A stretch of DNA of 64,000 nucleotides from the NCBI GenBank assembly GCA_963662155.1, contig OY759261.1, positions 50,272,414 through 50,336,413 on the forward strand, in the 5' to 3' direction. Position 1 is the first letter of the stretch; every line of letters begins with the position of its first letter. Below the pieces are notes generated by a model. The model made no database searches. It was not told the DNA's origin and saw only the letters and a list, made by a program, of their open reading frames with translations. The translations under genes and the position numbers were made by a program. Source of the DNA: Lamellibrachia columna. Its lineage: Eukaryota > Annelida > Polychaeta > Sabellida > Siboglinidae. Below are positions 1 through 63,711 of this stretch, piece after piece.

Positions 1-279
1 TCCATTGATGGGTGCACCAAACTATGCCACATATTTGACTGATGTGCATTTTCTTCGAAGGACTCTTCTTTTTTGATGCCAATGCATATCTATCAGTTGT
101 GATAATCCATCTCTCACCACACTGTCAGTATAAACACAGGACTCCACTGACAGAAGATCTCCTGTACAGGTGCAAGTAATGGAAGTTGCTGATTAAATAA
201 TGTTTAATGTGGGAACTGCTGTCTAATTCATGTTACACTAGTATTGTGAATGTGTAAAAAGTCACATGGAAGTTCTTAC

Positions 280-363
280 TTCAGGCTCTGGATAGATGTG
301 TTCGCTGCCAATCCAACACTCAGTTCCTTCGTTGTGTCTGCATCTAGAGCACAGTAGCTCAAA
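280..363 (-). CDS. NLR gene, LRR exon A (last one in the window)
   Basis: This is an 84-nt exon encoding one 28-residue leucine-rich repeat. On the minus strand it is bounded by a pyrimidine-rich acceptor ending tttcag and a donor gtaagaa. One base completes the previous codon and two bases are left over (phase 2), so the exon can be repeated without breaking the frame. The peptide begins LSYCALDADTTKEL and continues SVGLAANTSIQSL, with Leu at ribonuclease-inhibitor-type LRR positions and the C-x-L and N-x-S-I signature of NLR repeats. It is the eighth LRR after the NACHT exon. Later exons lie beyond the left edge. Expression is not shown; the call rests on splice sites, phase and motif. Confidence 0.85.
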
Positions 364-1983
364 CTGAAAGTAAAATATCAAAAATGTTAATATGCTGGTA
401 CATTATAATGACACCACAACACTCCTCAAGCAAACATAAAAAAATAGTATTGCACTAATATGTGTAACTATTTAGTAGTTAAATTAACTGTTAAATGTAT
501 TTTATTCTTCGGAGACCTACGCACCAGTTGTGTGCCACAAATAACATACTGCTTCAAACAGTCAGGATACATAAAAAACTGACATTGTAACAATCAACCC
601 ACTCACTTAATTTGAAACGTGCTGGTCTATCATTATGACACCACAATAATAACAACAATAGCCCATTGTTTGTTGAGTAGACCAACTGTAATGAGGCAAT
701 GCTGACTGGTCTTCAGGTGTCGTTCAATGCACTATTCCATCAATCAATGCACACATTTCAGACAGCGATGCCATTAAATGTACTAGTCCAATGAAGGATG
801 CATCGCACGCTGTCATAGGTCGACTGTTCAGTTTGTGATAAACAAAGCATCATATTTAGTACACATGTGCTATGACAGGTGGTAAATAAGGTAAGAGGTG
901 AATCGCAGCAAAATTTCCCTTTTAAGAGGGCGTGGCACTATACTGTATCATCAACACCTTGAGGCTAGGCGGGGGAAAGGAAGATGGGAAAGAGGTATAA
1001 GGGATACGTTCCTATCATATTTGAAAGGGGTTATTTTGTTATTTGTATGTTATTCCCTAGATATCTACATACCAACGAATCAATATGTCAGGATATGTAT
1101 AGAAAAACTGTCATTACAACAATCAACCTGCTCACTTCATTCAACATAGTATTAGTTATATGTACGCATATTGTGATACAGCTGTAGATATAAATTACAA
1201 ATTAACCCACTATTTGTTGCAACTGAAATAAAGAAATGCAGACTTCATTCAACTGTTCGTGTTTTTGATCCAGAGTCTCTGATGAGAATATGTGTCTTGT
1301 TGTTTGTACTGTGAAGTGACCTTGTAGGAACTGATGGTAAACACTTGGATGTGTGTACTTCAGCTGGAACAGTTGTGTGATATGGACCGGCATCCAACTT
1401 GAGTATTGGGAAACAATCACGATGCCAACTTTCTGAGCATCTCTAAATACAGTTGGAAATTGATTGCTCTCATATATCTCACAAACGACCAGTACATCCG
1501 AACAGGAACTGACTGTGTTGTGCATCACCCACAGAATGTAAACAGGACATCACCAGTAAGATGTATGTCAAGATACTGTCTGTACGTAGCTCTCTGTTGG
1601 ACATTGAGACTAGCGGCTGTCACTTGGTGTGTCCATCTTGTCCTTGTTATGTGGCTGCCCTCCTGTAATGTAATATGTGCTTCTACGAAAGCATTTGACC
1701 ACCCACTACTCTTGAGCCAGTCACGTAGTACATGCATGTGCACTATCAAGGGAACGTTGCCTCGTTGCAGTCTACTTTAAATGTCAATTGTTTTATTTCA
1801 TTAAGAAAAATGGGTGCCGATTTGCATATGTGCAAACGACACAATCATCTAATCACATTAAATTTATCTAAATCGATTCCTCATATCCCAAAAACAGTCG
1901 AGGATTTTTTTAGAACACTGAAAAATATTAACTAGAAGTGGAGATATGTACACAAAAAAATGTATTTCAGAGTTTCATGGTGA

Positions 1984-2011
1984 GTGGCATCATATGAAAA
2001 TATGATGCCAC
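1984..2011. repeat. Intronic perfect hairpin with GAAA loop (7 copies in the array)
   Basis: Arms gtggcatcatat and atatgatgccac form a 12-bp stem with a 4-base loop gaaa. Equivalent copies lie at 6219-6246, 8472-8499, 10721-10748, 12993-13020 (one arm mismatch), 15359-15386 and 17754-17778. In the last two the loop reads tttc, the reverse complement of gaaa, and the final one has lost three bases of the second arm. Confidence 0.9.
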
Positions 2012-2537
2012 ATGTCCTTGAAAGAGAAATTTTTTTGTTGCCCAACACCTGTCATATTAAATAAACTGTTACGAAACGTGGCGCTTATATCACAATCTGA
2101 ACGACTCATGTACTAAGATGTTGTCCTAAGTGAACCAGTTGATCGGCCACTGCAACGAAGGATGTCATATTTGATTAATGAACTGGCTCCGTTGAATGTA
2201 CAATTGAATTCCATCGATCAATGCACCGAACGCTGTCATATTTGAGACAGCGTATTAGTCCATTGATGGGTGCACCAAACTATGCCACATATTTGACTGA
2301 TGTGCGTTTTCTTCGAAGGACTCTTCTTTTTTGATGCCAATGCATATCTATCAGTTGTGATAATCCATCTCTCAACACACTGTCAGTATAAACACAGGAT
2401 TCCACTGACAGAAGATCTCCTGTACAGGTGCAAGTAATGGAAGTTGCTAATTAAATAATGTTTAATGTGGGAACTGCTGTCTAATTCATGTTACACTAGT
2501 ATTGTAAATGTGTAAAAAGTCACACGGAAGTTCTTAC

Positions 2538-2621
2538 TGAAGGCTCTGGATGGATGTGTTCCTTGCCAATCCAACACTCAGTTCCTTCATTGTGTGTGCA
2601 TCTAGATGACAGCCACTCAAA
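2538..2621 (-). CDS. NLR gene, LRR exon B
   Basis: An 84-nt LRR exon with the same acceptor (tttcag) and donor (gtaag) as the other copies and the same phase 2. The peptide starts LSGCHLDAHTMKEL and continues SVGLARNTSIQSL. It is the 'GCH' sequence class, shared with exons F and G. The exon ends CTTCA instead of CCTGAA, so the codon split across the next intron gives His. The intron on its transcript-upstream side (2622 to 6768) contains the LINE at 3074-5026. Confidence 0.85.
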
Positions 2622-3056
2622 CTGAAAGTAAAATATCAACAATGTTAATATGCTGGTACATCATAATGACACCACAACACTCGTCAAGCAAACATAACAA
2701 AAATAGTATTGCACTAATATGTGTAACTATTTAGTAGTTAAATTACCTATTAAATGTATTTTATTCTTCGGAGACCTACGCACCAGTTGTGTGCCACAAA
2801 TAACATACTGCTTCAAACAGTCAGGATACATAAAAAACTGACATTGTAACAATCAACCCACTCACTTAATTTGAAACGTGCTGGTCTATCATTATGACAC
2901 CACAATAATAACAACAATAGCCCATTGTTTGTTGAGTAGACCAACTGTAATGAGGCAATGCTGACTGGTCTTCTGGTGTTGTTCAATGCACTATTCCATC
3001 AATCAATGCACACATTTCAGACAACGATGCCATTAAATGTACTAGTCCAATGAAGG

Positions 3057-4670
3057 ATGCATCGCATGCTGTCTACCCTTGATCATATATTCGCTTTACA
3101 CTCATTGGTTGAATTTTATTTGACTCGCCGCAAAAGGCTTTATTGTGCCTTCATCGATTATAAAAAAGCATTTGATCTAGTAGACAGATCCTCACTGTGG
3201 TCCAAGCTAATTGCTTGTGGTATTAATGGCAATGTGTTGAAGGTTATATACAACATGTATGAAAATGCTAAGTCATGTGTAAAACAGGGCCAAGCCCTGT
3301 CAGATTTCTTTTCATGTGAAGTTGGTGTGCGGCAAGGAGAAAACTTGTCTCCTTTGTTATTTGCTATTTACCTTAATGATTTTGAACATTCAGTTAGCCG
3401 TAATTACAAGGGACTTGACATGCTGACTGGTGAAATTCATAACAACCTTTGTGATGATGAGGTAGAAGTTTTCTTGAAAATGTATGTTTTACTCTATGCT
3501 GATGATACTATTGTTATGGCAGAAACACCTGAAGATTTGCAGTCTGCCTTAAATGCTGCATGTGATTATTGCCAAACATGGCACCTAACTGTTAATACCA
3601 GTAAAACGAAGGTAATTATTTTCTCACGTGGAAAGGTCAGATCACACCCAGACTTCTTGTTTGGACAAAATAAACTAGAGGTAACTGATAGTTACATATA
3701 TTTGGGAACCAATCTAAACTATAATGGACTGTTTAACAAAGCCATAACGAAACAAGTTAATCAAGCTAGGCGTGCAATGTTCAATCTCACAACTAAAGCG
3801 AGGAAGCTAGATTTACATATAGACATACAGTGTGAGCTGTTTGACCAGCTTATAATGCCAATTTTACTATACGGTTGTGAAATATGGGGTTTTCAAAATC
3901 TAGACCAGATTGAGAGATTCCATAGAAAATTCTTGAAAAGTCTACTAAAACTGAATAGGAGCACAGCAAATTGTATGGTATATGGAGAAGTTGGCAGACA
4001 AAATGTGACAGCAGTTATAGAAAAGAGAATGATAAACTTTTGGATACATATAATTGACGGCAAACAAAGCAAGCTATCTAATGTTATTTTCAGGCTTATG
4101 AAAAGTCTCCATGATACAGGTGATTTTAAATCAAAATGGATTCTAAAAATTAAGAGTATAATTGATGGATGTGGACTAACTAACATGTGGCATGACCATA
4201 GTATAGTAAATATAAAATGGTTGAAGCATAACTTGGAACTCAAGTTGAAAGATATTAACATACAAACATGGCACAGTGAAATTCATGCAAATAGGCTATG
4301 TTCAAATTACAGAATATTCAAAAATGAAGTAGGTTTCGAGAAGTATTTAACATATTTGAGCCCAACTGACAGAATTAATTTATGTATATTTCGCTGTGGA
4401 AATCACAAATTACCTATTTCTGTTGGTCGTTATCTCCCTGGAAATGCCCAGAGGCTATGTCACTTATACAACACTGGGGAACAAGGTGACGAATATCATT
4501 ATGTACTTGTATGTCCATCTCTAATGGAAGAAAGATCGAAATACATAAAAAGATACTTCAGAATCAGACCTAATACTCTGAAAATGAACCAGCTGTTCAA
4601 TGTACACAATGTGAAACAGCTGACAGATCTGTCCAGATTTATTAAAATAATCATGACAAAGTTTGTCTAA
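3057..4670 (+). pseudogene. LINE reverse-transcriptase C-terminal two-thirds (truncated)
   Basis: A 537-codon frame whose first ATG (3057) belongs to the host array; only residues from about 6 on are LINE. RT motif A is FIDYKKAFDLV (about 32-42), motif B VRQGENLSPLLF (91-102), and motif C LLYADDT (145-151) with the catalytic Asp pair. YLGTNL and the thumb follow. Near the C-terminus are a Cys/His-rich stretch (CHLYN, then HYVLVCP) and a basic tail. The missing endonuclease and first RT blocks make it unable to move on its own. Stop is TAA at 4668-4670. Confidence 0.88.
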
Positions 4671-5026
4671 TTAACAAACTGCCTTATTAAAACAGTGAAT
4701 TGCGTAGAAGTAAAAGTGTAGCTCATAGTTAATTTACTGTTCATATTATTACATAGTTTAGTTCAAATTGTGCAATATATACATAGTTTATTTTATTTTA
4801 CATTACCTAAATTGCATGTATTGATTATATAGAAAATACTTTATCCAATAATGAAACTAGATGTATTATGCACTGTAACTAGATGATTTACATACTGTAA
4901 ATATGTTTTATACAATATATGTCATGTATTGTAAGCAGATGTTCTACTAAAATGTACTGTAGAGAGAAACTTCTCTCATACTCCGCAAGGGGTCGTAGGG
5001 AAATAAAAATCATTGTCATTGTCATT
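3074..5026 (+). mobile_element. Young 5'-truncated LINE (CR1/L2-like) inserted in an LRR-array intron
   Basis: The array sequence is interrupted after gctgtc (3073) and resumes at ataggtcgact (5030). The insert starts inside the reverse-transcriptase domain and ends with a short stem-like region, aaataaaaat and about three copies of attgtc. The endonuclease and N-terminal RT are missing. The target is gctgtc before ataggtc; tgtc occurs on both sides as a 4-bp duplication or microhomology with the tail. The reading frame to 4670 has no stop, so insertion is recent and later than the amplification of the array. It lies in opposite orientation to the host gene. Confidence 0.9.
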
Positions 5027-6768
5027 GTCATAGGTCGACTGTTCAGTTTGTGATAAACAAAGCATCATATTTGGTACACATGTGCTATGACAGGAGCTAA
5101 ATAAGGTAAGAGGTGGATTGCAAAAAAATTTCCCTTTTAAGAGGGCGTGTCACTATACTGTATCATCAACACCTTGAGGCTAGGCGGGGGAAAGGAAGAT
5201 GAGAAAAAGGTATAACGGATACGTTCCTGTCACATTTGAAAGGGGTTATTTTGTTATTTGAATGTTATTCCCTAGATATCTACATACCAACAAATCAATA
5301 CGTCAGGATATGTATAGAAAAACTGTCATTACAACAATCAACCTGCTCACTTCATTCAACATATTATTAGTTGTATGTACGCATATTGTGATACAGCTCT
5401 ACATATAAATTACAATTTAACCCACTATTTGTAGCAACTGAGATAAGGCAATGCAGACTTCATTCAACTGTTCGTGATGTTGATCCAGGTTCTCTGATGA
5501 GAATATGTGTCTTGTTGTTTGTACTGTGAAGTGACCTTGTGGGAACTGATGGTAAACACTTGGATGTGTGTACTTTAGCTGGGATGTGTGTACTTCAGCT
5601 GGAACAGGTGTGTGGTATGGACCGGCATCAAACTTGAGTATTGGGAAACAATCACAATGCCAACTTTCTGAGCATCTCTAAATATAGTTGGAAGTTGATT
5701 GCTCTCATATATCTCACAAACGACCAGTACATCTAAACAGGAACTGACTGTGTTGTGCATCACCCACAGAATGTAGACAGGACATCACCAGTAAGATGTA
5801 TGTCAAGATACTGTCTGTATGTAGCTCTCTGTTGGACATTGAGACTAGCGGCTGTCACTTGGTGTGTCCATCTTGTCCTTGTTATGTGGCTGCCCTCCTG
5901 TAATGTAATATGTGCTTCTACGAAAGCATTTGACCACCCACTACTCTTGAGCCAGTCACGTAGTACATGCATGTGCACTATCAAGGGAACGTTGCCTCGT
6001 TGCAGTCTACTTTAAATGTCAATTGTTTTATTTCATTAAGAAAAATGGGTGCCGATTTGCATATGTGCAAACGACACAATCATCTAATCACATTAAATTT
6101 ATCTAAATCGATTCCTCATATCCCAAAAACAGTCGAGGATTTTTTTAGAACACTGAAAAATATTAACTAGAAGTGGAGATATGTACACAAAAAAATGTAT
6201 TTCAGAGTTTCATGGTGTGTGGCATCATATGAAAATATGATGCCACATGTCCTTGAAAGAGAAATTTTTTTGTTGCCCAACACCTGTCATATTAAACTTT
6301 TACGAAACGTGGCGCTTATATCACAATCTGAACGACTCATGTACTAAGATGTTGTCCTAAGTGAACCAGTTGATCGGCCACTGCAACGAAGGATGTCATA
6401 TTTGATTAATGAACTGGCTCCGTTGAATGTACAATTGAATTCCATCGATCAATGCACCGAACACTGTCATATTTGAGACAGCGTATTAGTCCATTGATGG
6501 GTGCACCAAACTATGCCACATATTTGACTGATGTGCGTTTTCTTCGAAGGACTCTTCTTTTTTGATGCCAATGCATATCTATCAGTTGTGATAATCCATC
6601 TCTCAACACACTGTCAGTATAAACACAGGACTCCACTGACAGAAGATCTCCTGTACAGGTGCAAGTAATGGAAGTTGCTGATTAAATAATGTTTAATGTG
6701 GGAACTGCTGTCTAATTCATGTTACACTAGTATTGTGAATGAGTAAAAAGTCACATGGAAGTTCTTAC

Positions 6769-6852
6769 TTCAGGTTCTGGATAGATGTGTTCGCTGCCAA
6801 TCCAACAGTCAGTTCCTTCGTTGTGTCTGCATCTAGAGCACAGTAGCTCAAA
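6769..6852 (-). CDS. NLR gene, LRR exon C
   Basis: An 84-nt phase-2 LRR exon with consensus splice sites. The peptide begins LSYCALDADTTKEL, then TVGLAANTSIQNL. It is the 'SYCA' class and differs from exon A by Ser to Thr and Ser to Asn changes, so the coding part varies modestly even though the surrounding intron is near-identical between units. Confidence 0.85.
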
Positions 6853-9020
6853 CTGAAAGTAAAATATCAGCAATGTTAATATGCTAGTACATTATAATGA
6901 CACCACAACACTCCTCAAGCAAACATAAAAAAAATAGTATTGCACTAATATGTGTAACTATTTAGTAGTTAAATTAACTGTTAAATGTATTTTATTCTTC
7001 GGAGACCTACGCACCAGTTGTGTGCCACAAATAACATACTGCTTCAAACAGTCAGGATACATAAAAAACTGACATTGTAACAATCAACCCACTCACTTAA
7101 TTTGAAACGTGCTGGTCTATCATTATGACACCACAATAATAACAACAATAGCCCATTGTTTGTTGATTAGAGCAACTGTAATGAGGCAATGCTGACTGGT
7201 CTTCAGGTGTCGTTCAATGCACTATTCCATCAATCAATGCACACATTTCAGACAACGATGCCATTAAATGTACTAGTCCAATGAAGGATGCATCGCACGC
7301 TGTCATAGGTCGACTGTTCAGTTTGTGATAAACAAAGCATCGTATTTAGTACACATGTGCTATGACAGGTGCTAAATAAGGTAAGAGGTGAATCGCAGCA
7401 AAATTTCCCTTTTAAGAGGGCGTGGCACTATACTGTATCATCAACACCTTGAGGCTAGGCGGGGTAAAGGAAGATGGGAAAGAGGTATAAGGGATACGTT
7501 CCTATCATATTTGAAAGGGGTTATTTTGTTATTTGTATTTTATTCCCTAGATATCTACGTACCAACAAATCAATATGTCAGGATATGTATAGAAAAACTG
7601 TCATTACAACAATCAACCTGCTCACTTCATTCAACATATTATTAGTTATATGTACGCATATTGTGATACAGCTGTAGATATAAATTACAAATTAACCCAC
7701 TATTTGTTGCAACTGAAATAAAGAAATGCAGACTTCATTCAACTGTTCGTGTTTTTGATCCAGAGTCTCTGATGAGAATATGTGTCTTGTTGTTTGTACT
7801 GTGAAGTGACCTTGTAGGAACTGATGGTAAACACTTGGATGTGTGTACTTCAGCTGGAACAGTTGTGTGATATGGACCGGCATCCAACTTGAGTATTGGG
7901 AAACAATCACGATGCCAACTTTCTGAGCATCTCTAAATACAGTTGGAAATTGATTGCTCTCATATATCTCACAAACGACCAGTACATCCGAACAGGAACT
8001 GACTGTGTTGTGCATCACCCACAGAATGTAAACAGGACATCACCAGTAAGATGTATGTCAAGATACTGTCTGTACGTAGCTCTCTGTTGGACATTGAGAC
8101 TAGCGGCTGTCACTTGGTGTGTCCATCTTGTCCTTGTTATGTGGCTGCCCTCCTGTAATGTAATATGTGCTTCTATGAAAGCATTTGACCACCCACTACT
8201 CTTGAGCCAGTCACGTAGTACATGCATGTGCACTATCAAGGGAACGTTGCCTCGTTGCAGTCTACTTTAAATGTCAATTGTTTTATTTCATTAAGAAAAA
8301 TGGGTGCCGATTTGCATATGTGCAAACAACACAATCATCTAATCACATTAAATTTATCTAAATCGATTCCTCATATCCCAAAAACAGTCGAGGATTTTTT
8401 TAGCACTGAAAAATATTAACTAGAAGTGGAGATATGTACAAAAAAAAATGTATTTCAGAGTTTCATGGTGTGTGGCATCATATGAAAATATGATGCCACA
8501 TGTCCTTGAAAGAGAAATTTGTTGTTGCCCAACACCTGTCATATTACACTTTTACGAAACGTGGCGCTTATATCACAATCTGAACGACTCATGTACTAAG
8601 ATGTTGTCCTAAGTGAACCAGTTGATCGGCCACTGCAACGAAGGATGTCATATTTGATTAATGAACTGGCTCCGTTGAATGTATAATTGAATTCCATTGA
8701 TCAATGCACCGAACGCTGTCATATTTGAGACAGCGTATTAGTCCATTGATGGGTGCACCAAACTATGCCACATATTTGACTGATGTGCGTTTTCTTCGAA
8801 GGACTCTTCTTTTTTGATGCCAATGCATATCTATCAGTTGTGATAATCCATCTCTCAACACACTGTCAGTATAAACACAGGACTCCACTGACAGAAGATC
8901 TCCTGTACAGGTGCAAGTAATGGAAGTTGCTGATTAAATAATGTTTAATATGGGAACTGCTGTCTAATTCATGTTACACTAGTATTGTGAATGTGTAAAA
9001 AGTCACATGGAAGTTCTTAC

Positions 9021-9104
9021 TTCAGGTTCTGGATAGATGTGTTCGCTGCCAATCCAACACTCAGTTCCTTCGTTGTGTCTGCATCTAGAGCACAGTAGCT
9101 CAAA
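9021..9104 (-). CDS. NLR gene, LRR exon D
   Basis: An 84-nt phase-2 LRR exon, 'SYCA' class, ending NTSIQNL. It differs from exon C by a single residue (SVGL instead of TVGL). Acceptor tttcag and donor gtaag are intact, so it joins in frame to its neighbours. Confidence 0.85.
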
Positions 9105-11270
9105 CTGAAAGTAAAATATCAGCAATGTTAATATGCTGGTACATCATAATGACACCACAACACTCCTCAAGCAAACATAACAAAAATAGTATTGCACTAA
9201 TATGTGTAACTATTTAGTAGTTAAATTAACTTTTCAATGTATTTTATTCTTCGGAGACCTACGCACCAGGTGTGTGCCACAAATAACATACTGCTTCAAA
9301 CAGTCAGGATACATAAAAAACTGACATTGTAACAATCAACCCACTCACTTAATTTGAAACATCTATCATTATGACACCACAATAATAACAACAATAGCTC
9401 ATTATTTGTTGATTAGAGCAACTGTAATGAGGCAATACTGACTGGACTTCAGGTGTCGTTCAATGCACTATTCCATCAATCAATGCACACATATCAGACA
9501 GCGATGCCATTAAATGTACTAGTCCAATGAAGGATGCATCGCATGTTGTCATAGGTCAACTGTTCAGTTTGTGATAAACAAAGCATCATACATGGTGCAC
9601 ATGTGCTGTGACAAGTGCTAAATAAGGTAAGAGGTGAATCGCAGCAAAATTTCCCTTTTAAGAGGGCGTGGCACTATACTGTATCATCAACACCTTGAGG
9701 CTAGGCGGGGGAAAGGAAGATGGGAAAGAGGTATAAGGGATACGTTCCTATCATATTTGAAAGGGGTTATTTTGTTATTTGTATGTTATTCCCAAGACAT
9801 CTACATACCAACGAATCAATATGTCAGGATATGTATAGAAAAACTGTCATTACAACAATCAACCTGCTCACTTCATTCAACATATTATTAGTTATATGTA
9901 CGCATATTGTGATACAGCTATACATATCAATTACAATTTAACCCACTATTTGTAGCAACTGAAATAAAGCAATGCAGACTTCATTCAACTGTTCGTGTTT
10001 TTGATCCAGAGTCTCTGATGACAATATGTGTCTTGTTGTTTGTACTGTGAAGTGACCTTGTAGGAACTGATGGTAAACACTTGGATGTGTGTACTTCAGC
10101 TGGAACAGTTGTGTGTTATGGACCGGCATCCAACTTAAATATTGGGAAACAATCACGATGCCAACTTTCTGAGCATCTCTAAATACAGTTGGAAATTGAT
10201 TGCTCTCATATATCTCATAAACGACCAGTACATTCGAACAGGAACTGACTGTGTTGTGCATCACCCACAGAATGTAAACAGGACATCACCAGTAAGATGT
10301 ATGTCAAGATACTGTCTGTACGTAGCTCTCTGTTGGACATTGAGACTAGCGGCTGTTACTTGGTGTGTCCATCTTGTCCTTGTTATGTGGCTGCCCTCCT
10401 GTAATGTAATATGTGCTTCTACGAAAGCATTTCACCACCCACTACTCTTGAGCCAGTCACGTAGTACATGCATGTGCACCATCAAGGGAACGTTGCCTCG
10501 TTGCAGTCTACTTTAAATGTCAATTGTTTTATTTCATTAAGAAAAATGGGTGCCGATTTGCATATGTGCAAACGACACAATCATCTAATCACATTAAATT
10601 TATCTAAATCGATTCCTCATATCCCAAAAACAGTCGAGGATTTTTTTAGAACACTGAAAAATATTAACTAGAAGTGGAGATATGTACACAAAAAAAATGT
10701 ATTTCAGAGTTTCATGGTGTGTGGCATCATATGAAAATATGATGCCACATGTCCTTGAAAGAGAAATTTTTTTGTTGCCCAACACCTGTCATATTAAACT
10801 TTTACGAAACATGGCGCTTATATCACAATCTGAACAACTCATGTACTAAGATGTTGTCCTAAGTGAACCAGTTGATCGGCCACTGCAACGAAGGATGTCA
10901 TATTTGATTAATGAACTGGCTCCGTTGAATGTACAATTGAATTCCATCGATCAATGCACCGAACGCTGTCATATTTGAGACAGCGTATTAGTCCATTGAT
11001 GGGTGCACCAAACTATGCCACATATTTGACTGATGTGCGTTTTCTTCGAAGGACTCTTCTTTTTTGATGCCAATGCATATCTATCAGTTGCGATAATCCA
11101 TCTCTCAACACACTGTCAGTATAAACACAGGACTCCACTGACAGAAGATCTCCTGTACAGGTGCAAGTAATGGAAGTTGCTGATTAAATAATGTTTAATG
11201 TGGGAACTGCTGTCTAATTCATGTTACACTAGTATTGTGAATGTGTAAAAAGTCACATGGAAGTTCTTAC

Positions 11271-11354
11271 TGAAGGCTCTGGATAGATGTGTTCGCTGAC
11301 AATCCAACACTCAGTTCCTTCGTTGTGTCTGCATCTAGAGCACAGTAGCTCAAA
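11271..11354 (-). CDS. NLR gene, LRR exon E (mosaic of the two classes)
   Basis: An 84-nt phase-2 LRR exon. Its body is of the 'SYCA' class (LSYCALDADTTKEL, SVGLSANTSIQSL), but its last five bases and donor side are CTTCA then gtaag, as in the 'GCH' class. A Ser replaces the usual Ala or Arg (GLSANT). The class switch inside 84 bp suggests conversion or crossover between units. Confidence 0.85.
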
Positions 11355-13530
11355 CTGAAAGTAAAATATCAACAATGTTAATATGCTGGTACATTATAAT
11401 GACACCACAACACTCCTCAAGCAAACATAAAAAAATAGTATTGCACTAATATGTGTAACTATTTAGTAGTTAAATTAACTGTTAAATGTATTTTATTCTT
11501 CGGAGACCTACGCACCAGTTGTGTGCCACAAATAACATACTGCTTCAAACAGTCAGGATACATAAAAAACTGACATTGTAACAATCAACCCACTCACTTA
11601 ATTTGAAACGTGCTGGTTTATCATTATGACACCACAATAATAACAACAATAGCCCATTGTTTGTTGAGTAGACCAACTGTAATGAGGCAATGCTGACTGG
11701 TCTTCAGGTGTCGTTCAATGCACTATTCCATCAATCAATGCACACATTTCAGACAGTGATGCCATTAAATGTACTAATCCAATGAAGGATGCATCACACG
11801 CTGTCATAGGTCGACTGTTCAGTTTGTGATAAACAAAGCATCATATTTGGTACACATGTGCTATGACAGGAGCTAAATAAGGTAAGAGGTGGATTGCAAA
11901 AAAATTTCCCTTTTAAGAGGGCGTGTCACTATACTGTATCATCAACACCTTGAGGCTAGGCGGGGGAAAGGAAGATGAGAAAAAGGTATAACGGATACGT
12001 TCCTGTCACATTTGAAAGGGGTTATTTTGTTATTTGAATGTTATTCCCTAGATATCTACATACCAACAAATCAATACGTCAGGATATGTATAGAAAAACT
12101 GTCATTACAACAATCAACCTGCTCACTTCATTCAACATATTATTAGTTGTATGTACGCATATTGTGATACAGCTCTACATATAAATTACAATTTAACCCA
12201 CTATTTATAGCAACTGAAATAAGGCAATGCAGACTTCATTCAACTGTTCGTGATGTTGATCCAGGATCTCTGATGAGAATATGTGTCTTGTTGTTTGTAC
12301 TGTGAAGTGACCTTGTGAGAACTGATGGTAAACACTTGGATGTGTGTACTTTAGCTGAGATGTGTGTACTTCAGCTGGAACAGGTGTGTGGTATGGACCG
12401 GCATCAAACTTGAGTATTGGGAAACAATCACAATGCCAACTTTCTGAGCATCTCTAAATACAGTTGGAAGTTGATTGCTCTCATATATCTCACAAACGAC
12501 CAGTACATCCGAACAGGAACTGACTGTGTTGTGCATCACCCACAGAATGTACACAGGACATCACCAGCAAGATGTATGTCAAGATACTGTCTGTACGTAG
12601 CTCTCTGTTGGACATTGAGACTAGCGGCTGTTACTTGGAGTGTCCATATTGTCCTTGTTACGTAGCTTCCCTCCTGTAATGTAATATGTGCTTCTACGAA
12701 AGCATTTGACCACCCACTACTCTTGAGCCAGTCACGTAGTACATGCATATGCACTATCAAGGGAACGTTGCCTCGTTGCAGGCTACTTTAAATGTCAATT
12801 GTTATATTTCATTAACAAAAATGGGTGCCGATTTGCATATATTCAAACGACACAATCATCTAATCACATTAAATTTATCTAAATCGATTCCCCATATCCC
12901 CAAAACAGTCGAGGATTTTTTTAGAACTGAAAAATATTAACTAGAAGTGGAAATGTGTACACAAAAAAATGTATTTCAGAGTTTCATGGTGTGTGGCATC
13001 ATATGAAAATATGATGTCACATGTCCTTGAAAGAGAAATTTTGTTGTTGCCCAATACCTGTCATATGACACTTTTACCAAACGTGGCGCTTATATCACAA
13101 TCTGAACAACTCATGTACTAAGATGCTGTCCTAAGTGAACCAGTTGATCGGCCACTGCAACGAAGGATGTCATATTTGATTAATGAACTGGCTCCGTTGA
13201 ATGTACTATTGAATTCCACCGAACGCTGTCATATTTGAGACAGCATATTAGTCCATTGATGGGTGCACCAAACTATGCCACATATTTGACTGACGTGCGT
13301 TTTCTTCGAAGGACTCTTCCTTTTTGATGCCAATGCATATCTATCAGTTGTGATAATCCATCTCTCAACACACTGTCAGTATAAACACAGGATTCCACTG
13401 ACAGAAGATCTCCTGTACAGGTGCAAGTAATGGAAGTTGCTAATTAAATAATGTTTAATGTGGGAACTGCTGTCTAATTCATGTTACACTAGTATTGTAA
13501 ATGTGTAAAAAGTCACACGGAAGTTCTTAC

Positions 13531-13614
13531 TGAAGGCTCTGGATGGATGTGTTCCTTGCCAATCCAACACTCAGTTCCTTCATTGTGTGTGCATCTAGAT
13601 GACAGCCACTCAAA
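13531..13614 (-). CDS. NLR gene, LRR exon F
   Basis: An 84-nt phase-2 LRR exon of the 'GCH' class (LSGCHLDAHTMKEL, SVGLARNTSIQSL). The coding sequence appears identical to exon B about 11 kb away, while the exons between them are of the other class. Splice sites are intact. Confidence 0.85.
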
Positions 13615-15912
13615 CTGAAAGTAAAATATCAACAATGTTAATATGCTGGTACATCATAATGACACCACAACACTCGTCAAGCAAACATAACAAAAATAGT
13701 ATTGCACTAATATGTGTAACTATTTAGTAGTTAAATTACCTATTAAATGTATTTTATTCTTCGGAGACCTACGCACCAGTTGTGTGCCACAAATAACATA
13801 CTGCTTCAAACAGTCAGGATACATAAAAAACTGACATTGTAACAATCAACCCACTCACTTAATTTGAAACATGCTGGTCTTTCATTATGACACCACAATA
13901 ATAACAACAATAGCCCATTGTTTGTTGAGTAGAGCAACTGTAATGGGGCAATGCTGACTGGTCTTCAGGTGTCGTTCAGTGCACTATTCCATCAATCAAT
14001 GCACACATTTCAGACAGCGATACCATTAAATGTACTAATCCAATGAAGGATGCATCGCACGCTGTCATAAGTCGACTGTTCAGTTTGTGATAAACAAAGC
14101 ATCATATTTGGTACACATGTGCTATGACAGGTGCTAAATAAGGTAAGAGGTAGATCTCAAAAAATTTCCCTTTTAAGAGGGCGTGTCACTATACTGTATC
14201 ATCAACACCTTGATGCTAGGCGGGGGAAAGGAAGATGGGAAAGAGGTATAAGGGATACGTTCATGTCACATTTGAAAGGGGTTATTTTGTTATTTGTCTG
14301 TTATTCCCTAGATATTTACATACCAACAAATCAATACGTCAGGATATGTATAGAAAAACTGTCAATACAACAATCAACCTGCTCACTTCATTCAACATAT
14401 TATTAGTTGTATGTACGCATATTGTGATACAGCTCTACATATAAATTACAATTTAACCCACTATTTGTAGCAACTGAAATAAGGCAATGCAGACTTCATT
14501 CAACTGTTCGTGTTTTTGATCCAGGGTCTCTGATGAGAATATGTGTCTTGTTGTTTGTACTGTGAAGTGACCTTGTGGGAACTGATGGTAAACACTTGGA
14601 TGTGTGTACTTCAGCTGGAACAGGTGTGTGATATGGTCCGGCATCCAACTTGAGTATTGGGAAACAATCACGATGCAAACTTTCTGAGCATCTCTAAATA
14701 CAGTTGGAAGTTGATTGCTCTCATATATCTCACAAACGACCAGTACATCAGAACAGGAACTGACTGTGTTGTGCATCACCCACAGAATGTCGACAGGACA
14801 TCACCAGTAAGTTGTATGTCAAGATACTGTCTGTACGTAGCTCTCTGTTGGACATTGAGACTAGCAGCTGTTACTTGGTGTGTCCATCTTGTCCTTGTTA
14901 TGTGGCTGCCCTCCTCTAATGTAATATGTGCTTCTACGAAAGCACTTGACCACCCACTACTCTTGAGCCAGTCACGTAGTACATGCATGTACTGTAATAA
15001 TAATGTAATAATAATAATGTAATGTAATAATAATAATGTAATGTAATGTAATATGTGCTTCTAAGAAAACACTTGACCACCCACTACTCTTGAGCCAGTC
15101 ACTTAGTACATGCATTTCAAGGGAATGTTGCCTCGTTGCAGGCCACTTTAAATGTCAATTGTTATATTTCATTAACAAAAATGGGTGCCGATTTGCATGT
15201 GCAAACTAGGGAATCATCAAATAACATTAAATTGATCTAAATTGATTCCTCATATCCCAAAAACAGTCAAGGATTTTTTTAGAACACTGAAAAATATTAA
15301 CTAGACGTGGAGATATGTACACAAAAAAATGTATTTCATGGTGTGAGTTTCATGGTGTGTGGCATCATATTTTCATATGATGTCACGTCCTTGAAAGAGA
15401 AATTTTGTTGTTGTCCAACACCTGTCATATTACACTTTTACTTTTACCAAACGTGGCGCTTTTATCATAATCTGAGCAACTCATGTACTAAGATGCTGTC
15501 CTAAATGAACCAGTTGATCGGCCACTGCAACGAAGGATGTCATATTTGATTAATGAACTGGCTCCGTTGAATGTACTATTGAATTCCATCGATCAATGCA
15601 CCGAACGCTGTCATATTTGAGACAGCATATTAGTCCATTGATGGGTGCACCAAACTATGCCACATATTTGACTGATGTGCGTTTTCTTCGAAGGACTCTT
15701 CCTTTTTGATGCCAATGCATATCTATCGGTTGTGATAATCCATCTCTCAACACACTGTCAGTATAAACACAGGATTCCACTGACAGAAGATCTCCTGTAC
15801 AGGTGCAAGTAATGGAAGTTGCTAATTAAATAATGTTTAATGTGGGAACTGCTGTCTAATTCATGTTACACTAGTATTGTAAATGTGTAAAAAGTCACAC
15901 GGAAGTTCTTAC

Positions 15913-15996
15913 TGAAGGCTCTGGATGGATGTGTTCCTTGCCAATCCAACACTCAGTTTCTTCGTTGTGTGTGTATCTAGATGACAGCCACTCAAA
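15913..15996 (-). CDS. NLR gene, LRR exon G
   Basis: An 84-nt phase-2 LRR exon of the 'GCH' class with three private changes (LSGCHLDTHTTKKL, SVGLARNTSIQSL). Acceptor and donor are intact. It ends CTTCA, giving a split His codon with the next exon. Confidence 0.85.
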
Positions 15997-18306
15997 CTGA
16001 AAGTAAAATATCAACAATGTTAATATGCTGGTACATCATAATGACACCACAACACTCGTCAAGCAAACATAAAAAAAATAGTATTGCACTAATATGTGTA
16101 ACTATTTAGTAGTTAAATTACCTATTAAATGTATTTTATTCTTCGGAGACCTTCGCACCAGTTGTGTGCCACAAATAACATACTGCTTCAAACAGTCAGG
16201 ATACATAAAAAACTGACATTGTAACAATCAACCCACTCACTTAATTTGAAACATGCTGGTCTTTCATTATGACACCACAATAATAACAACAATAGCCCAT
16301 TGTTTGTTGAGTAGAGCAACTGTAATGGGGCAATGCTGACTGGTCTTCAGGTGTCGTTCAGTGCACTATTCCATCAATCAATGCACACATTTCAGACATC
16401 GATACCATTAAATGTACTAATCCAATGAAGGATGCATCGCACGCTGTCATAGGTCGACTGTTCAGTTTGTGATAAACAAAGCATCATATTTGGTACACAT
16501 GTGCTATGACAGGTGCTAAATAAGGTAAGAGGTAGATCTCAAAAAATTTCCCTTTTAAGAGGGCGTGTCACTATACTGTATCATCAACACCTTGATGCTA
16601 GGCGGGGGAAAGGAAGATGGGAAAGAGGTATAAGGGATACGTTCCTGTCACATTTGAAAGGGGTTATTTTGTTATTTGTCTGTTATTCCCTAGATATTTA
16701 CATACCAACAAATCAATATGTCAGGATATGTATAGAAAAACTGTCAATACAACAATCAACCTGCTCACTTCATTCAACATATTATTAGTTGTATGTACTA
16801 TGTACGCATATTGTGATACAGCTCTACATATAAATTACAATTTAACCCACTATTTGTAGCAACTGAAATAAGGCAATGCAGACTTCATTCAACTGTTCGT
16901 GATGTTGATCCAGGGTCTCTGATGAGAATGTGTGTCTTGTTGTTTGTACTGTGAAGTGACCTTGTGGGAACTGATGGTAAACACTTGGATGTGTATACTT
17001 TAGCTGGGATGTGTGTACTTCAGCTGGAACAGGTGTGTGGTATGGACCGGCATCAAACTTAAGTATTGGGAAACAATCACAATGCCAACTTTCTGAGCAT
17101 CTCTAAATACAGTTGGAAGTTGATTGCTCTCATATATTTCACAAACGACCAGTACATCCGAACAGGAACTGACTGTGTTGTGCATCACCCACAGAATGTA
17201 GACAGGATATCACCAGCAAAATGTATGTCAAGATACTGTCTGTACGTAGCTCTCTGTTGGACATTGAGACTAGCAGCTGTTACTTGGTGTGTCCATCTTG
17301 TCCTTGTTACGTGGCTGCCCTCCTGTAATGTAATATGTGCTTCTACGAAAGCACTTGACCACCCACTACTCTTGAGCCAGTCACGTAGTACATGCATGTA
17401 CTGTAATAATAATGTAATAATAATAATGTAATGTAATGTAATGTAATATGTGCTTCTAAGAAAGCACTTGACCACCCACTACTCTTGAGCCAGTCACTTA
17501 GTACATGCATTTCAAGGGAATGTTGCCTCGTTGCAGGCCACTTTAAATGTCAATTGTTATATTTCATTAACTAAAATGGGTGCCGATTTGCATGTGCAAA
17601 CTAGGTAATCATCAAATAACATTAAATTGATCTAAATAGATTCCTCATATCCCAAAAACAGTCAAGGATTTTTTTAGAACACTGAAAAATATTAACTAGA
17701 CGTGGAGATATGTACACAAAAAAATGTATTTCATGGTGTGAGTTTCATGGTGTGTGGCATCATATTTTCATATGTCACATGTCCTTGAAAGAGAAATTTT
17801 TTTGTTGTCCAACACCTGTCATATTACACTTTTACTTTTACCAAACGTGGCGCTTTTATCATAATCTGAGCAACTCATGTACTAAGATGCTGTCCTAAAT
17901 GAACCAGTTGATCGGCCACTGCAACGAAGGATGTCATATTTGATTAATGAACTGGCTCCGTTGAATGTACTATTGAATTCCATCGATCAATGCACCGAAC
18001 GCTGTCATATTTGAGACAGCATATCAGTCCATTGATGGGTGCACCAAACTATGCCACATATTTGACTGATGTGCATTTTCTTCGAAGGATTCTTCCTTTT
18101 TGATGCCAATGCATATCTATCGGTTGTGATAATCCATCTGTCAACACACCGTCAGTATAAACACAGGACTCCACTGACAGAAGATCTCCTGTACAGGTGC
18201 AAGGAATGGAAGTTGCTGATTAAATAATGTTTAATGTGGGAACTGCTGTCTAATTCATGTTACACTAGTATTGTGAATGTGTAAAAAGTCACATGGAAGT
18301 TCTTAC

Positions 18307-18390
18307 TCAAGGCTCTGGATGGACGTGTTCGCTGCCAAACCAACACTCAGTTCCTTCATTGTGTGTGCATCTAGACGACAGCCACTCAAA
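18307..18390 (-). CDS. NLR gene, LRR exon H (first LRR after NACHT)
   Basis: An 84-nt phase-2 LRR exon next in transcript order after the NACHT exon, about 780 bp downstream of it. The peptide begins LSGCRLDAHTMKEL, then SVGLAANTSIQSL. It ends CTTGA then gtaaga, so the split codon is Asp. The NACHT exon also ends GA in phase 2, so the junction reads TNLD followed by LSGC, a natural entry into an LRR. This is the most diverged unit of the array. Confidence 0.85.
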   Translation of the reverse strand, partial: FEWLSSRCTHNEGTECWFGSEHVHPEP

Positions 18391-19173
18391 CTGAAAGTAA
18401 AATATCAACAATGTTAATATGCTGGTACATCATAATGACACCACAACACTCCTCAAACAAACATAAGAAAAATAGTACTGCACTAATATGTGTAACTATT
18501 TAGTAGTTAAATTACCTATTAAATGTATTTTATTCTTCGGAGACCTTCGCACCAGTTGTGTGCCACAAATAACATACTGCTTCAAACAGTCAGGATACAT
18601 AAAAAACTGACATTGCAACAATCAACCCACTCACTTAATTTGAACCATTAGTTGTATGTATGCATATTATGAGCCTGCTGAACAGCTATATTAAACAACA
18701 GCCCATTATTTGTTGAATGTAGCAACTGTAATAAGACAATGTTGACTGAACCTCAGTTTAGTTGCACTGAGGAGTCATTAGACCTGGTTCACAACACTGA
18801 ACAAACAAATGTGTCAATGTCCTCCAAACATTAGAACATATTTAGTAGTTAAATGTATGTTATTCCCTGGAGATCTACAGACTAACAGTTTGCCACCCAT
18901 AACTAACTGCTTACACAACTTTATCTGCAACAATCAGTGTGTTACTTTATTCAACATAATATAAGTGATATCTACACCGATAATAAGACATCTTGGTATT
19001 TATATTTGTTGGAAATTTCTACTGAAATAAGGTGATGCTGACTGGTCCAGTGGTGCAGCTGTATGAACTAGTCCATGAACCAATGCTCTGATTACTGTCA
19101 TATTGGAATTACTGGCTTTGTCCAATGAAAGTTAGATGAAGATAAGTCTGGGAATGAAAGAAATGCAACTTAC
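18391..19173 (-). other. Intron between NACHT exon and first LRR exon
   Basis: It begins with donor gtaagttg (minus strand, 19173 downward) and ends at acceptor tttcag before exon H. Identity to the array unit is high up to about 18650 and then falls. Segments such as caatgctgactgg and tccaatgaa show it is an old relative of the array intron, meaning this is the edge from which the cassette was amplified. Confidence 0.75.
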
Positions 19174-20767
19174 TCGAGGTTTGTAACAGGGCACTTGGTT
19201 TGTCTTAGCACCCAGGACAGTGCTTGCATTTCTGCTGGTAACACATGGCAGCACTTGATCTTACTTGTGATGATGTCCACAAGATCTGGATCTTGACTTT
19301 CAAATAAGATGTCCAGTACTTTCAGTGGGTCATCTTTCAGCACATCTGCCAGTTTCTTCACAAAGTCTTCGAGGTCCTGTGAGACTTGTGATGACAGGAG
19401 CTGTTTCGTGAACCAAGCATTATGGCTGTCTCCCACTAGACCCAACATGAACTTTATGACAATCTCCTGTTGGCGGACTGAGAATACATCCTCAAGAAGT
19501 TTATCTCTGTCTTCAGCTGATCCTTGAAGCAGCCCAATAGCAGAGAAATATTGTTGGAGGGTGAGATGATTAAATGACCAACATGGTTTAGTCATTGTTG
19601 GTACACGTTCGTCCCTCTTACTTGCTCGTGTCATGACTCCACACTCCATATCTTCAAGGCTGTTCACACGAAGACCAACTTCTTCCAGATCGTTTTGATA
19701 GAAGATGATTCTCAGTGGAGTTGACATCACACATTGTTTGGCCAACTCAGCATACTTCCTGAATGGTTCTGTTATGACCTTTAGTACATCTCCCAGTTCC
19801 ACTTCCCTGAACTTCAAGCGCGGGTGCATCTTCCTTGCCATGTTAATCGTTGCTTGCAGGTACAATTGTGTAATTGTCCTGATGACTGGCACCTCTCCCT
19901 TCTTGCTTTGTTCATGTAAATCCTTCAGAGTCTCGCACACAAACTTGGTCTGAATCGGGATGTACCAGAGCATCAGAAGATTCTTCTTTTCTTTAAATGT
20001 CTTCCTAATGAACTGCTGCAGTTGTTCATCCTCTGCACTAAACATGCTGACATACTCCATGATGCTGTCTCTCGGGACCCCATAGAGTTCAACAGTGCGG
20101 CCAAATGCCCTCAATGGTAGCAGGTGTGTTGACCTTGAAGTTACCACAACTGTAGCTCCAGGTAGCATGGTGTTGCCAAGAATACTTGACAGCAGCAGAG
20201 ACAGGTCAGTTGGTGCACCACGATCACTTGCAAGGCATCTGGATGTGTGGTGGTACTGTATCTCGTCGAGACCATCCCCCAAAATTAACAAGCGTTTGGG
20301 GTTTCTGCAGATTTCTTCAAAGGCAGCTTCTTTCTCAACTGGTGACAGTGGCAGTCTGTCAAGTAACATCTGCCTGAGGGTCAACTTTGTGTCTTGTGGC
20401 TGCTCCCTCAGCGTAATCAAAAAGACATGACTGAAGACATCCTTCCAAAGTCCTCCTGCTGCCCACTCACTGGCAATATGCTTCACAAGTGTTGATTTAC
20501 CGACACCTGCTCTGCCACGTATCAGTACTTTCTTGGGGGCGAATTTGTCTGTCATCTTGTCAAACAGCTCTGGCAACTTCACTACTGGGCTTGCTTGCAT
20601 GAGCTCCTCCATGGCAATGACATCCCGTTCACTCAAGGTCTCTGGGAGTTTCTTTGGTTCCGATTTTTGCAAGCGGAGTTCCACATAGACCTTGTCCAGT
20701 GGTGCAGGTTCTTCACTATCTAGCACCATGTCCCTGTATTGTTCTTTTAACACTTCCTTCAGTCGAT
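19174..20767 (-). CDS. NACHT-domain exon of an NLR-type receptor
   Basis: A single 1594-nt exon (about 531 codons), acceptor ataattcag at 20768-20769 and donor gtaagt at 19173. The open frame continues into intron to 20810, but the splice acceptor is the likelier start. Numbering from the open frame: Walker A GRAGVGKST at 99-107, Walker B LLILGDGLDE at 174-183, VVVTSR at 221-226, a Pro-containing winged-helix segment WYIPIQ at 282-287 and FNHLTLQQYFSA at 413-424. The NACHT ATPase and winged-helix modules look intact and should oligomerise on NTP binding. It ends CPVTNL plus GA, phase 2, which fits the 84-nt LRR exons. Death-fold or other N-terminal exons must lie above 20767; I could not find them. 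Orthology is not determined. Confidence 0.9.
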
Positions 20768-33328: not shown

Positions 33329-33412
33329 CTCCGGCTCTGATGATTTCTTCCTCGGTGGGGCCCTTTGCTGCTTCCAGGTTAGCAACTCGCTCATCAAGAG
33401 CTCCAACCTCCC
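33329..33412 (-). CDS. Candidate coiled-coil exon
   Basis: An 84-nt segment with acceptor ctttttcag and donor gtaatg. In the phase-1 frame it encodes EVGALDERVANLEAAKG and PTEEEIIRAG, with heptad spacing of Leu/Val/Ala. It joins in frame to 34283-34324. Both lengths are multiples of 42 nt (14 residues, two heptads). The gene is not recognised, and it is not an LRR exon. Confidence 0.5.
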
Positions 33413-34472: not shown

Positions 34473-34474
34473 AC

Positions 34475-34625
34475 CTGCCCTTTCAAGATCTCGTTTGACA
34501 GTCTTTCCATCGCAGCTTTGGTCTTCCTCTTCTTCTGCTGCCAACCTCTTCTGCTTTCCATGCTCTTTTTGACAGTCTGTCTTCACCCATTCTTTGCACA
34601 TGTCCTGCCCATCTCATTCTGGTTC
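34475..34625 (-). pseudogene. LINE C-terminal fragment, possibly exonised
   Basis: The minus strand reads MRWAGHVQRMGEDRL, then RRRGRPKLRWKD, the diagnostic end of a LINE endonuclease-RT protein. After a frameshift the other frame gives VKRDLERA and meets a donor (gcag before gtatgc at 34474) in the same phase as the coiled-coil exons downstream. It may be chance or exonisation. Confidence 0.55.
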
Positions 34626-39345: not shown

Positions 39346-40700
39346 CAGGGCTGGGTCCAATTATGTAATTGCAATTGTAATTGATTACAGCAAAATTATG
39401 TAATTGTAATTGACTTCGGTTGTGAAATTCTGCTGTAATTGTAATTGAAATAGGGTGTGTAATTACAATCAATTACAATCAATTACAATCAATTACAATC
39501 AATTACAATCAATTACAATCAATTACAATCAATTACAATCAATTACAATCAATTACAATCAATTACAATCAATTACAATCAATTACAATCAATTACAATC
39601 AATTACAATCAATTACAATCAATTACAATCAATTACAATCAATTACAATCAATTACAGTATTTTTTTCTATAACAAACTACCAGAAAAAAAACTTAATTA
39701 TAACCCATGCGGGACCTGCTCATATAATCAAAGTAATATTCAGATATAACAAGTGCACCAACAGAATACCTCTGGCCTTCCTAAGCAATGTTTAAGTGCA
39801 ATCTGCCAGCAGACAGTTCACACCTGGCTTCCAAAGGGCTCCAAATATGCTATAAAGCATCACCATTAGCTGTTTTTAAGGTATACCCCAATTGGTCATT
39901 GGTCTGTCTTTTCTTTGATTCTGTAATCTTCTATCAGTGAAGGGCCAGGTGGTGGTTTCTGTTGATACAGTACATACTTAGATCATGTAATTAACACTGC
40001 CCAAGTAAGTAAATTAACTCAATTGAGAGTGAGCTACAGCCCACAGGTTTATTAGGTAATAATACTGACTGGGTTTGAAGCCAAGAGACTCGTGGTAGGC
40101 AAACTAGTGTACAACCTCAAAACACAACTGCCAAGTAAACCAATCTGGGTATAACACAGTAGACAGAATGGGTGTACACCAAGGAGTATACACAAAACCC
40201 CTCGGGACGTATCTTGATGTGAACATTGCTAATGTACTGGTATGAATTATTTGTGATTATGTTTTATGAGTGGAATTGCTTTGAAATGGCTTAGTAGATT
40301 GGAGACTCATTAGGCCTTTGTTTATAGTTGTACTGTACTCTAATTAATTAAACATTAATTATTGAACCAAGCAAACATTACATTGTATTTATAAGGAACA
40401 ATAATATTTATCTAGGTAATATGAAGGTATATGAAATCATGAAGTCACGGTTCAACAAAATGTACAAACATCACCAAGTTCATTATATTTGTTTATCAAT
40501 CGTACTATTCGTACGCACAATCACCAACACACGCTACATAATTAACAAATGGTTCTGCATAATACAAGTGTAATTGTAACTGAAATCGAAATGGTGTAAT
40601 TGTAACTGATTTGAAAATTTTAGAAGTGTAATTGTAATTGAACTGAACAATTTAAAGTAATTGTAATTGATTTGATTTTTTGTAATTGGACCCAGCCCTG
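39346..40700. mobile_element. Non-autonomous TIR DNA transposon carrying a decamer array
   Basis: Termini are cagggctgggtccaatta and its exact inverted copy at 40683-40700. A 5-bp acaac flanks both sides (39341-39345 and 40701-40705), a possible target duplication. Both subterminal regions are built of taattgtaattga-like words. There is no transposase. Confidence 0.8.
39461..39658. repeat. Perfect decamer microsatellite (aattacaatc)x19
   Basis: Nineteen exact copies of a 10-bp unit, then a broken copy. The unit is derived from the subterminal words of the surrounding TIR element, so the array most likely grew from the element's own end. Confidence 0.95.
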
Positions 40701-47329: not shown

Positions 47330-48600
47330 TCTTGATCGGTCTGATTCTCGCGCTCTTTCGTGAACTCGGCTTTCATCATCCGTCAGTTTCCACACGTGGG
47401 ATGCATCGCTGCAGATATCGTCCACTTAAAAGACTTCCACCAGACCCGATCCCGTGCCAGTTTCTTAACTTGCGTCCAGCTGATTTCGTGTTCTACCAGG
47501 TTAATTGTGCTTCATCAGGGCCAGCCAGGTTAGCTTTGGACGACCCTTGGGTCTTCGATCATCCATCTCTGCTTCGGCCAATGCTCTTCTTACAGGGGTG
47601 TCTTCTGACATGTGCAGCAGGTGACCACACCGTCGGGATCTTCTTTCACAGATCTTGACACTCCAGAGGTTGTCGATTGCTTATCTTGTCTGGCCATCTG
47701 GTGTTAATTACCATTTTGAGCAATCGACGCTGGAATGCATTCACTTGACCAGTTAGAGTTGATGTCATAGTCCAGTTTTCTGAGTTGTACAGAAAGATGC
47801 TCTGGACTAGTGTCTCAAAGATTCTGATCTTTAGACAGCTGTTGGTTTGATTACATCTCCAAACCTATTGGAACGCACTCATTGCATCAAGCGCCAACTT
47901 CTTTCTTCGTTTGATGTTTTCTTCAGTATCAAGCAGATAACACAGGATCTTGTATCATGGAAACGCTACATCATTGGATGGCCTGTCTATGGTGTACTCC
48001 TCATCTTTGGTGGTGTTGTTCTGGAGTTGGCGTTGCGTACTCTGTCGTTTTCGATGACATATGTCTGCTCCCCGTTACTGCCCATTATGTGTCATCTGCG
48101 TACTGTGCATCGATAATTGTGTTGATCGGTTTGCTGTATGCATGATCTATCAGATGTATATTTGTTGGTAGTGATGGATCAGGAGACTTCCGGTGGTAGT
48201 TGTGATCATTTCAGGGTGGTAACTGAAAGCTTTGGCTAGGTAGAGGATGAAGAGGACTGGACTTAGACAGTCCCCCTGCGGCACGCCTGTCTTTGTCGTG
48301 AATCTCTCTCCGGTTTCCCTCCCACGTCTTACGCACAACTGAACTCCTTCCAGCAGCACCTTGATCATGCTTAGTTCATCAGGATTCACAATTGTTCTCA
48401 GATCTTCTACCAACCCTTATACAAATATGCCATGGTATACCATGGTGTTACAGTGTAAACCATGACATTACATGGTAAACTGTGGTATACCATGGTTTAC
48501 ATGTTTCAAGACACCATGGTATATTATTCATAAGGAACGGTCTCTCTGTTTACGGTATCAAAAGCTTTTGGCATATCCATTAGCTGCATGTGTGTTGTGT
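47330..48600 (-). mobile_element. LINE in left arm of the inverted duplication
   Basis: Minus strand: MPKAFDTVNRETV near 48570 (RT motif A), a catgg/tatacc-rich insertion, then GVPQGDCLSPVLFILYL near 48280 (motif B), further RT in broken frames, and the tail LYNSENWTM, RCGHLLHMSEDTPVRRAL and RPKGRPKLTWL at about 47520-47790. Stops and frameshifts throughout. Confidence 0.8.
48425..48525. repeat. CCATGG/TATACC palindromic cluster (left arm)
   Basis: Repeated ccatggtataccatgg-like words that pair with one another. The mirror copy lies at 51520-51620. It interrupts both LINE copies just after the RT motif NRET, so it behaves as a miniature inverted element. Confidence 0.75.
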
Positions 48601-52190: not shown

Positions 52191-52218
52191 GAGTTAATGT
52201 GGTGCCACCATTTTTCGT

Positions 52219-55661: not shown

Positions 55662-55694
55662 CTGAAAGTGACAGACCAACAAGGTTAATATTCA

Positions 55695-63690: not shown

Positions 63691-63711
63691 TCAGCACATT
63701 ATTTACAATAA

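Follow-up and report, generated by a model that had tools for sequence, protein, structure and literature searches.

An in-frame tandem array of leucine-rich-repeat exons, divergent among homogenised introns, in a probable NLR-type receptor gene of a tubeworm

Introduction

Genes of the ciliate Tetrahymena contain arrays of phase-2, 90-bp exons coding for leucine-rich repeats (LRRs) and subject to ectopic recombination, and it was suggested by the authors who described them that the arrays had perhaps one origin (Xiong et al., 2019, PMC6564038). As far as the accessible parts of that paper go, these arrays consist of tandem exon-intron units within one gene, the exon corresponds to about one LRR, the bias towards phase 2 is extreme, introns are uniform in young genes, non-LTR (long terminal repeat) elements lie beside or in the units, and a unit measures ~347 bp in T. 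thermophila. Here we describe an array of LRR exons in an animal gene, found in a 64,000-nucleotide (nt) stretch of Lamellibrachia columna DNA (contig OY759261.1, positions 50,272,414 to 50,336,413), which is called the window below and to which all coordinates refer.

Vestimentiferans live on bacterial symbionts, which they must admit while excluding other bacteria (PMC6862839, PMC8476170, in the parts accessible). The same parts report 20 NLRs in Paraescarpia echinospica, 68 in L. luymesi and two in Capitella (PMC8476170), and again an expansion of NLRPs in L. luymesi (PMC6862839); tubeworm NLRC is described, in the accessible text of another report, as a CARD-NACHT-LRR protein (PMC11508797). 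The gene in the window probably belongs to the family that has expanded in this way. Our data point with good confidence to an innate immune receptor of the NLR type in a vestimentiferan-like annelid: an 84-nt LRR exon of this gene, phase 2 at both ends, has been amplified in tandem together with an intron of ~2.2 kb. This reading draws together the anatomy and phase of the array, its LRR homology, a divergence limited to the exon, incongruent histories of exon and intron, and mosaic units.

Anatomy and coding status of the array

The array extends from the left edge of the window to ~18.7 kb and is built of units of one exon and one intron, as established by self-BLAST and unit alignment (Table 1). 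Seven units are complete, measure 2250-2394 nt when one insert is left out, and share 94.3-98.2% pairwise identity; the eighth, unit A, is cut by the left edge of the window, beyond which the array continues, so that eight units are a minimum. Unit homology starts near 18748, beside exon H. The initial annotation had described eight open minus-strand segments of 84 nt in phase 2 with shared splice signals, and all eight were recovered: each is open when read from its second base on, each is symmetric (phase 2-2), and the acceptor ttttactttcag and the donor gtaagaac are identical in 8 of 8. A count of the pattern AG-N84-GTRAG on both strands gives a single match in each of the 7 complete units, always at the LRR exon. 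One intron carries a reverse-transcriptase element on the opposite strand, a 1.95-kb insertion that interrupts the array and has an open frame at 3054-4670.

Tandem repeats this large are hard to assemble, and one or a few units could have been multiplied in the assembly. We regard such an artefact as very improbable, for the units carry private substitutions of their own (E 26, F 19, H 15, D 10, G 9, C 9 and B 5 at ungapped biallelic columns), one unit has the 1.95-kb insertion, and there is no N in the window.

The same strand has, upstream of the array, an open exon with the NACHT domain that marks animal NLRs (Pfam NACHT PF05729, E 2.5e-29, 102.7 bits against a cut-off of 26.7). It also has an NLRC4_HD2 match (5e-5) below the family cut-off, and its relatives in PDB are NLRP3 and NLRP1. 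As had been claimed, this exon ends in the phase of the LRR exons (GA, then gtaagtt), which follow downstream in matching phase: its two final bases and the first base of an LRR exon make a sense codon, and the junction codons proved to be Asp, His or Asn, in agreement with the initial annotation. A protein search with the NACHT exon gave 46 matches, the window's own included, 40 of them at E < 1e-100. The closest named relatives are proteins of the tubeworm Lamellibrachia satsuma, and the best named match, P0002, is 92% identical over the NACHT exon. It reads ...CPVTNLD-LSGCRLDADTTKELSVGLAANMSIQSLE, that is, a NACHT exon fused to one LRR of the same family, and since P0002 runs from NLD straight into LSGCRLDADTTKELSVGLAANMSIQSLE, the predicted NACHT-LRR junction is supported by an independently annotated gene model.

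The openness of the LRR exons was rejected as proof of coding. When 84-column combinations of intron window, frame and strand were examined for being open in all 7 complete units, with 4064 gapped combinations set aside, 1233 of the 9466 ungapped ones (13%) were open too, and therefore openness is weak evidence alone. The case for coding is made by the LRR match, by phase and splice signals and by the P0002 protein. The conceptual series of eight LRRs matches ribonuclease inhibitor (PDB 4per, 9.5e-19), the LRRs of NLRP1 (4.5e-11) and Pfam LRR_6 (7.2e-14, in a search where some unrelated families also came near their cut-offs); its 28-residue period and these matches are those of ribonuclease-inhibitor-type LRRs. 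The locus had been described as an amplified LRR-exon cassette of one NLR-type gene, which phase, splice signals, LRR homology and the L. satsuma junction support well, and we conclude from sequence comparison that the in-frame array of LRR exons is real and very probably a coding part of an NLR gene.

It could be argued that the array is an untranslated satellite with a captured LRR exon, and that the gene uses exon H only or skips the array. The unit is indeed mostly intron, and the annotated L. satsuma relative P0002 ends after its single LRR in E and a stop, as read-through of an unspliced phase-2 gtaag donor would yield. However, a non-coding array is not expected to peak in divergence on 84 nt, as described below, and yet to spare the splice sites and the LRR consensus, and all eight exons keep their phase and openness. 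A satellite of this kind is thus an improbable explanation. No tRNA was found, and no Rfam family came up to its gathering score.

Divergence of exons and introns

A comparison of exon and intron divergence had been proposed together with the initial annotation, and its outcome was not foreseen there: divergence is concentrated in the exon, and the rest of the unit is homogenised. Exon divergence is 10.6% in the six central units, compared with 3.5% on average and 7.6% at most elsewhere, and none of 2105 other 84-column windows is as high; with all seven complete units the exon reaches 10.9% against a maximum of 7.9% (0 of 2255 other windows). The 84-nt bins flanking the exon diverge by 3.2% before it and 1.9% after it. 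In 5000 simulations of an 84-nt alignment along the intron tree, divergence never came up to the observed value, and 17 variable columns were reached three times. Variable columns are enriched in the exon by Fisher tests that ignore linkage, both for eight units (19 of 84 against 29 of 528 in the near flanks, nominal p 2.7e-6) and for the six central ones (17 of 84 against 170 of 2069 elsewhere, p 6e-4). Bin -4 of the centred profile (12.8%) stands above the exon and was rejected: unit H passes the array edge there and is misaligned, with 29 differences from unit B, compared with 0-5 in the other units.

The amino-acid changes are not spread evenly over the repeat. They affect 0 of 9 structural LRR positions and 11 of the 19 others (p 0.004), with position classes that follow the ribonuclease-inhibitor-type consensus. 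The variable residues 26, 28, 3 and 5 presumably lie on or beside the beta-strand face, and this face of ribonuclease-inhibitor-type LRRs carries ligand contacts. The divergence pattern fits old or imported exon types that were kept apart while the introns were homogenised.

Exons and introns of the six central units also have different histories. Unit B pairs with E in the intron tree (support 65) and with F in the exon tree (72), D and C stay together in both (100 and 95, respectively), and the two topologies reject each other (approximately unbiased test, AU, p 0.0002 and 0.0003). Units F and B, between which three units lie, are identical over 550 nt across the exon, and elsewhere unit B is identical to E for 401 nt and to C for 397 nt. 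Because of these long identical stretches with F, E and C, unit B is a mosaic, and such a mosaic is the pattern that gene conversion or unequal exchange among units would leave.

Upstream gene and neighbouring features

A linker exon upstream of the NACHT exon (Table 1) encodes EVGALDERVANLEAAKGPTEEEIIRAG between its split codons and has the donor gtaatg; its final base forms an Asp codon with the two bases that open the NACHT exon. Its product looks like a coiled-coil candidate. P0002 matches the linker exon and a fragment at 34473-34587 in the same order, and because of this shared order, in which the fragment is transposon-like, P0002 may be the orthologue of the window gene. Residues 9-47 of P0002 correspond to this fragment. 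Since the start of P0002 looks transposon-derived, the gene model of this protein is probably a chimera at its N-terminal end. The L. satsuma paralogue P0021 has DUF4559 (8.3e-44) in front, a domain that was not found in the scanned part of the window (tblastn; 45 frames), and no CARD was found in this part either. Above 20822 the minus strand has 69 stop-to-stop frames of >=65 aa, and the Pfam scan covered 45 of these, namely those from 33291 up, without five frames in NACHT remnants and one at 56969-57175; 18 frames between 20822 and 33291 fall outside it, one of which matched RVT_1 separately. The families in the scanned frames were Mutator, DDE_Tnp_4, RVT_1, Plant_tran and DUF6451, so that Mutator and DDE transposase domains are present on the minus strand.

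Further upstream on the minus strand are two copies of NACHT that are degenerate, with stops and frame changes (62158-63827 and 55580-57283), and three further 84-nt LRR exons at ~62158-62238, 55580-55660 and 57203-57283, which have the same phase and the gtaagaac donor. These copies and exons are part of a duplicated block with CACCTGACACCACCA-type repeats. The window also contains a perfect 10-bp tandem repeat, AATTACAATC, in 19.7 copies (39461-39657) and an imperfect long inverted repeat (47857-49916 and 50576-52193), the pieces of which are 81-92% alike.

Table 1. Positions of the array, its exons and associated features in the window.
Feature	Position	Strand	Basis
Complete array of exon-plus-intron units seen in the window	1..18748	minus	self-BLAST, unit alignment
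LRR exon A, array runs on past the window	280..363	minus	
LRR exon B, within mosaic unit	2538..2621	minus	
Reverse-transcriptase element in intron between exons C and B	~3074..5025	plus (opposite strand)	unit-homology gap, Pfam RVT_1 2.1e-24
LRR exon C	6769..6852	minus	
LRR exon D	9021..9104	minus	
LRR exon E	11271..11354	minus	
LRR exon F, same sequence as exon B	13531..13614	minus	
LRR exon G	15913..15996	minus	
LRR exon H, first after NACHT	18307..18390	minus	
NACHT exon, 1594 nt, open, ends in phase 2	19174..20767	minus	Pfam NACHT
Linker exon, 84 nt, phase 1 in and out	33329..33412	minus	tblastn of L. satsuma P0002 and P0021

Discussion

The explanation that we prefer is a receptor gene with the order linker exon, NACHT exon, LRR exons, in which the exons of the array would be spliced in series into a solenoid with eight or more LRRs. 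Unequal crossing-over would add or remove entire LRRs in frame, by which the length of the array might vary between individuals, as the initial annotation had proposed, and gene conversion would homogenise the introns and carry exon variants between units. Selection on the ligand-facing surface would keep divergent exon types, or import them, against this homogenisation. The exon-limited divergence suggests that the receptor diversifies one repeat at a time. More tentatively, and with real doubt, the locus could be seen as a germline self-diversifying receptor of an invertebrate: the 2.25-kb unit would serve as the recombination substrate, conversion would keep the introns alike, LRR exons would be gained, lost and swapped in frame, and selection would hold the exposed residues apart.

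Several observations weigh against this explanation. An N-terminal effector domain was not found upstream of NACHT in the partial Pfam scan of 45 frames, a terminal LRR exon with a stop does not lie within the window, and P0002 carries just one LRR. Two protein searches for an LRR-array protein of the same family found none; their matches, 29 and 2, were only distant LRR proteins (RanGAP-like and others), which is a weak negative, as the searches scored only candidates that share most words and fall within a length range, and P0002 itself was not listed. Variable columns are enriched in the exon by Fisher tests that ignore linkage, both for eight units (19 of 84 against 29 of 528 in the near flanks, nominal p 2.7e-6) and for the six central ones (17 of 84 against 170 of 2069 elsewhere, p 6e-4). 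Pooled over 28 exon pairs, the proportions of non-synonymous and synonymous differences are pN 0.103 and pS 0.112 (pN/pS ~0.92). A dN/dS above 1 was not found, and because synonymous sites are raised along with non-synonymous ones, positive selection is not shown by dN/dS. Counts of type-fixed sites were rejected as well. The first count, 7 in the exon and 0 in the introns, used a register that gave the pre-exon intron to the previous unit; the centred recounts (7 of 84 exon against 2 of 528 near-flank columns in eight units, 9 of 84 against 7 of 2069 columns in the six central units) are circular, because it was the exons themselves that defined the two groups, {H,G,F,B} and {E,D,C,A}.

The pN/pS near 1 would also be expected under relaxed constraint in place of diversifying selection: only some LRRs would matter after the amplification, and the exon peak would come from one or two divergent exons that other NLR genes had donated through short tracts of gene conversion. 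Synonymous sites are raised (5 of ~19, compared with 29 of 528 columns in the flanks; p 0.004), three codons carry double changes at adjacent bases that look templated, and the NACHT matches described above show that a sizeable family of such exons exists. However, drift alone at an equal mutation rate would not push the exon past its own intron, the exons are open with intact splice sites in 8 of 8 cases, and the structural LRR positions are unchanged. No donor exon was found for the supposed imports, and import is compatible with the preferred explanation too. Therefore, we consider relaxed constraint possible, though rather unlikely.

Retention of a phase-2 gtaag intron adds one residue and a TAA stop, which holds for the NACHT exon and all eight LRR exons; these minus-strand donors are at 19173 (NACHT) and at the low end of each LRR exon (the first at 18306, the last at 279). 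Each LRR exon could in this way terminate the protein at an LRR border. Since the exons are phase-symmetric and their donors give an immediate stop when unspliced, exon skipping or intron retention could grade the number of LRRs within one animal.

Expanded NLR families of invertebrates are usually discussed gene by gene, and in the array described here what duplicates, converts and diverges is one LRR within a gene. The array offers a testable germline route to receptor diversity, and a graded LRR number, if true, could matter for discrimination between symbionts and pathogens. The contrast of exon and intron within one array is an internal control, by which selection against homogenisation is directly testable.

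In the open literature, judged mostly by titles and the beginnings of abstracts, we found no animal NLR with a comparable array of LRR exons, and the accessible parts of the reports on the vestimentiferan NLR expansion (PMC8476170, PMC6862839) do not describe intragenic LRR-exon arrays. New protein repeats in general often diverge quickly and are later conserved, according to the accessible text of PMC5120217. The zebrafish NLR-B30.2 family (Howe et al., 2016, PMC4852459) resembles the window gene in its single large NACHT exon and in LRRs encoded on single exons, and the number of LRRs varies between its genes; however, its LRR sequences are called 'not particularly variable', and a kilobase-scale array of homogenised units is not described in the accessible parts of that paper. 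The KIV-2 repeat of human LPA (PMC6314250, likewise in its accessible parts) is also an exon-intron unit of kilobase size repeated in frame, with symmetric-phase exons as in 8 of 8 here; its repeats change the number of repeats in the protein, and their copy number is known to be polymorphic. It differs in its 5.6-kb unit with two exons and in encoding an apolipoprotein, not a receptor. With the arrays of Tetrahymena, as far as they are described in the text accessible to us (PMC6564038), the tubeworm array shares tandem exon-intron units within one gene, an exon of about one LRR, phase-2 introns throughout, uniform introns and evidence of ectopic recombination, and the mobile elements at the Tetrahymena units may have a counterpart here in the one reverse-transcriptase insertion (RVT_1 match) in one intron. 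Contrastingly, the tubeworm array is part of a NACHT-linked animal gene, its exons have 84 bp and not 90, its units are 2.25 kb long, and its divergence peaks on the exon.

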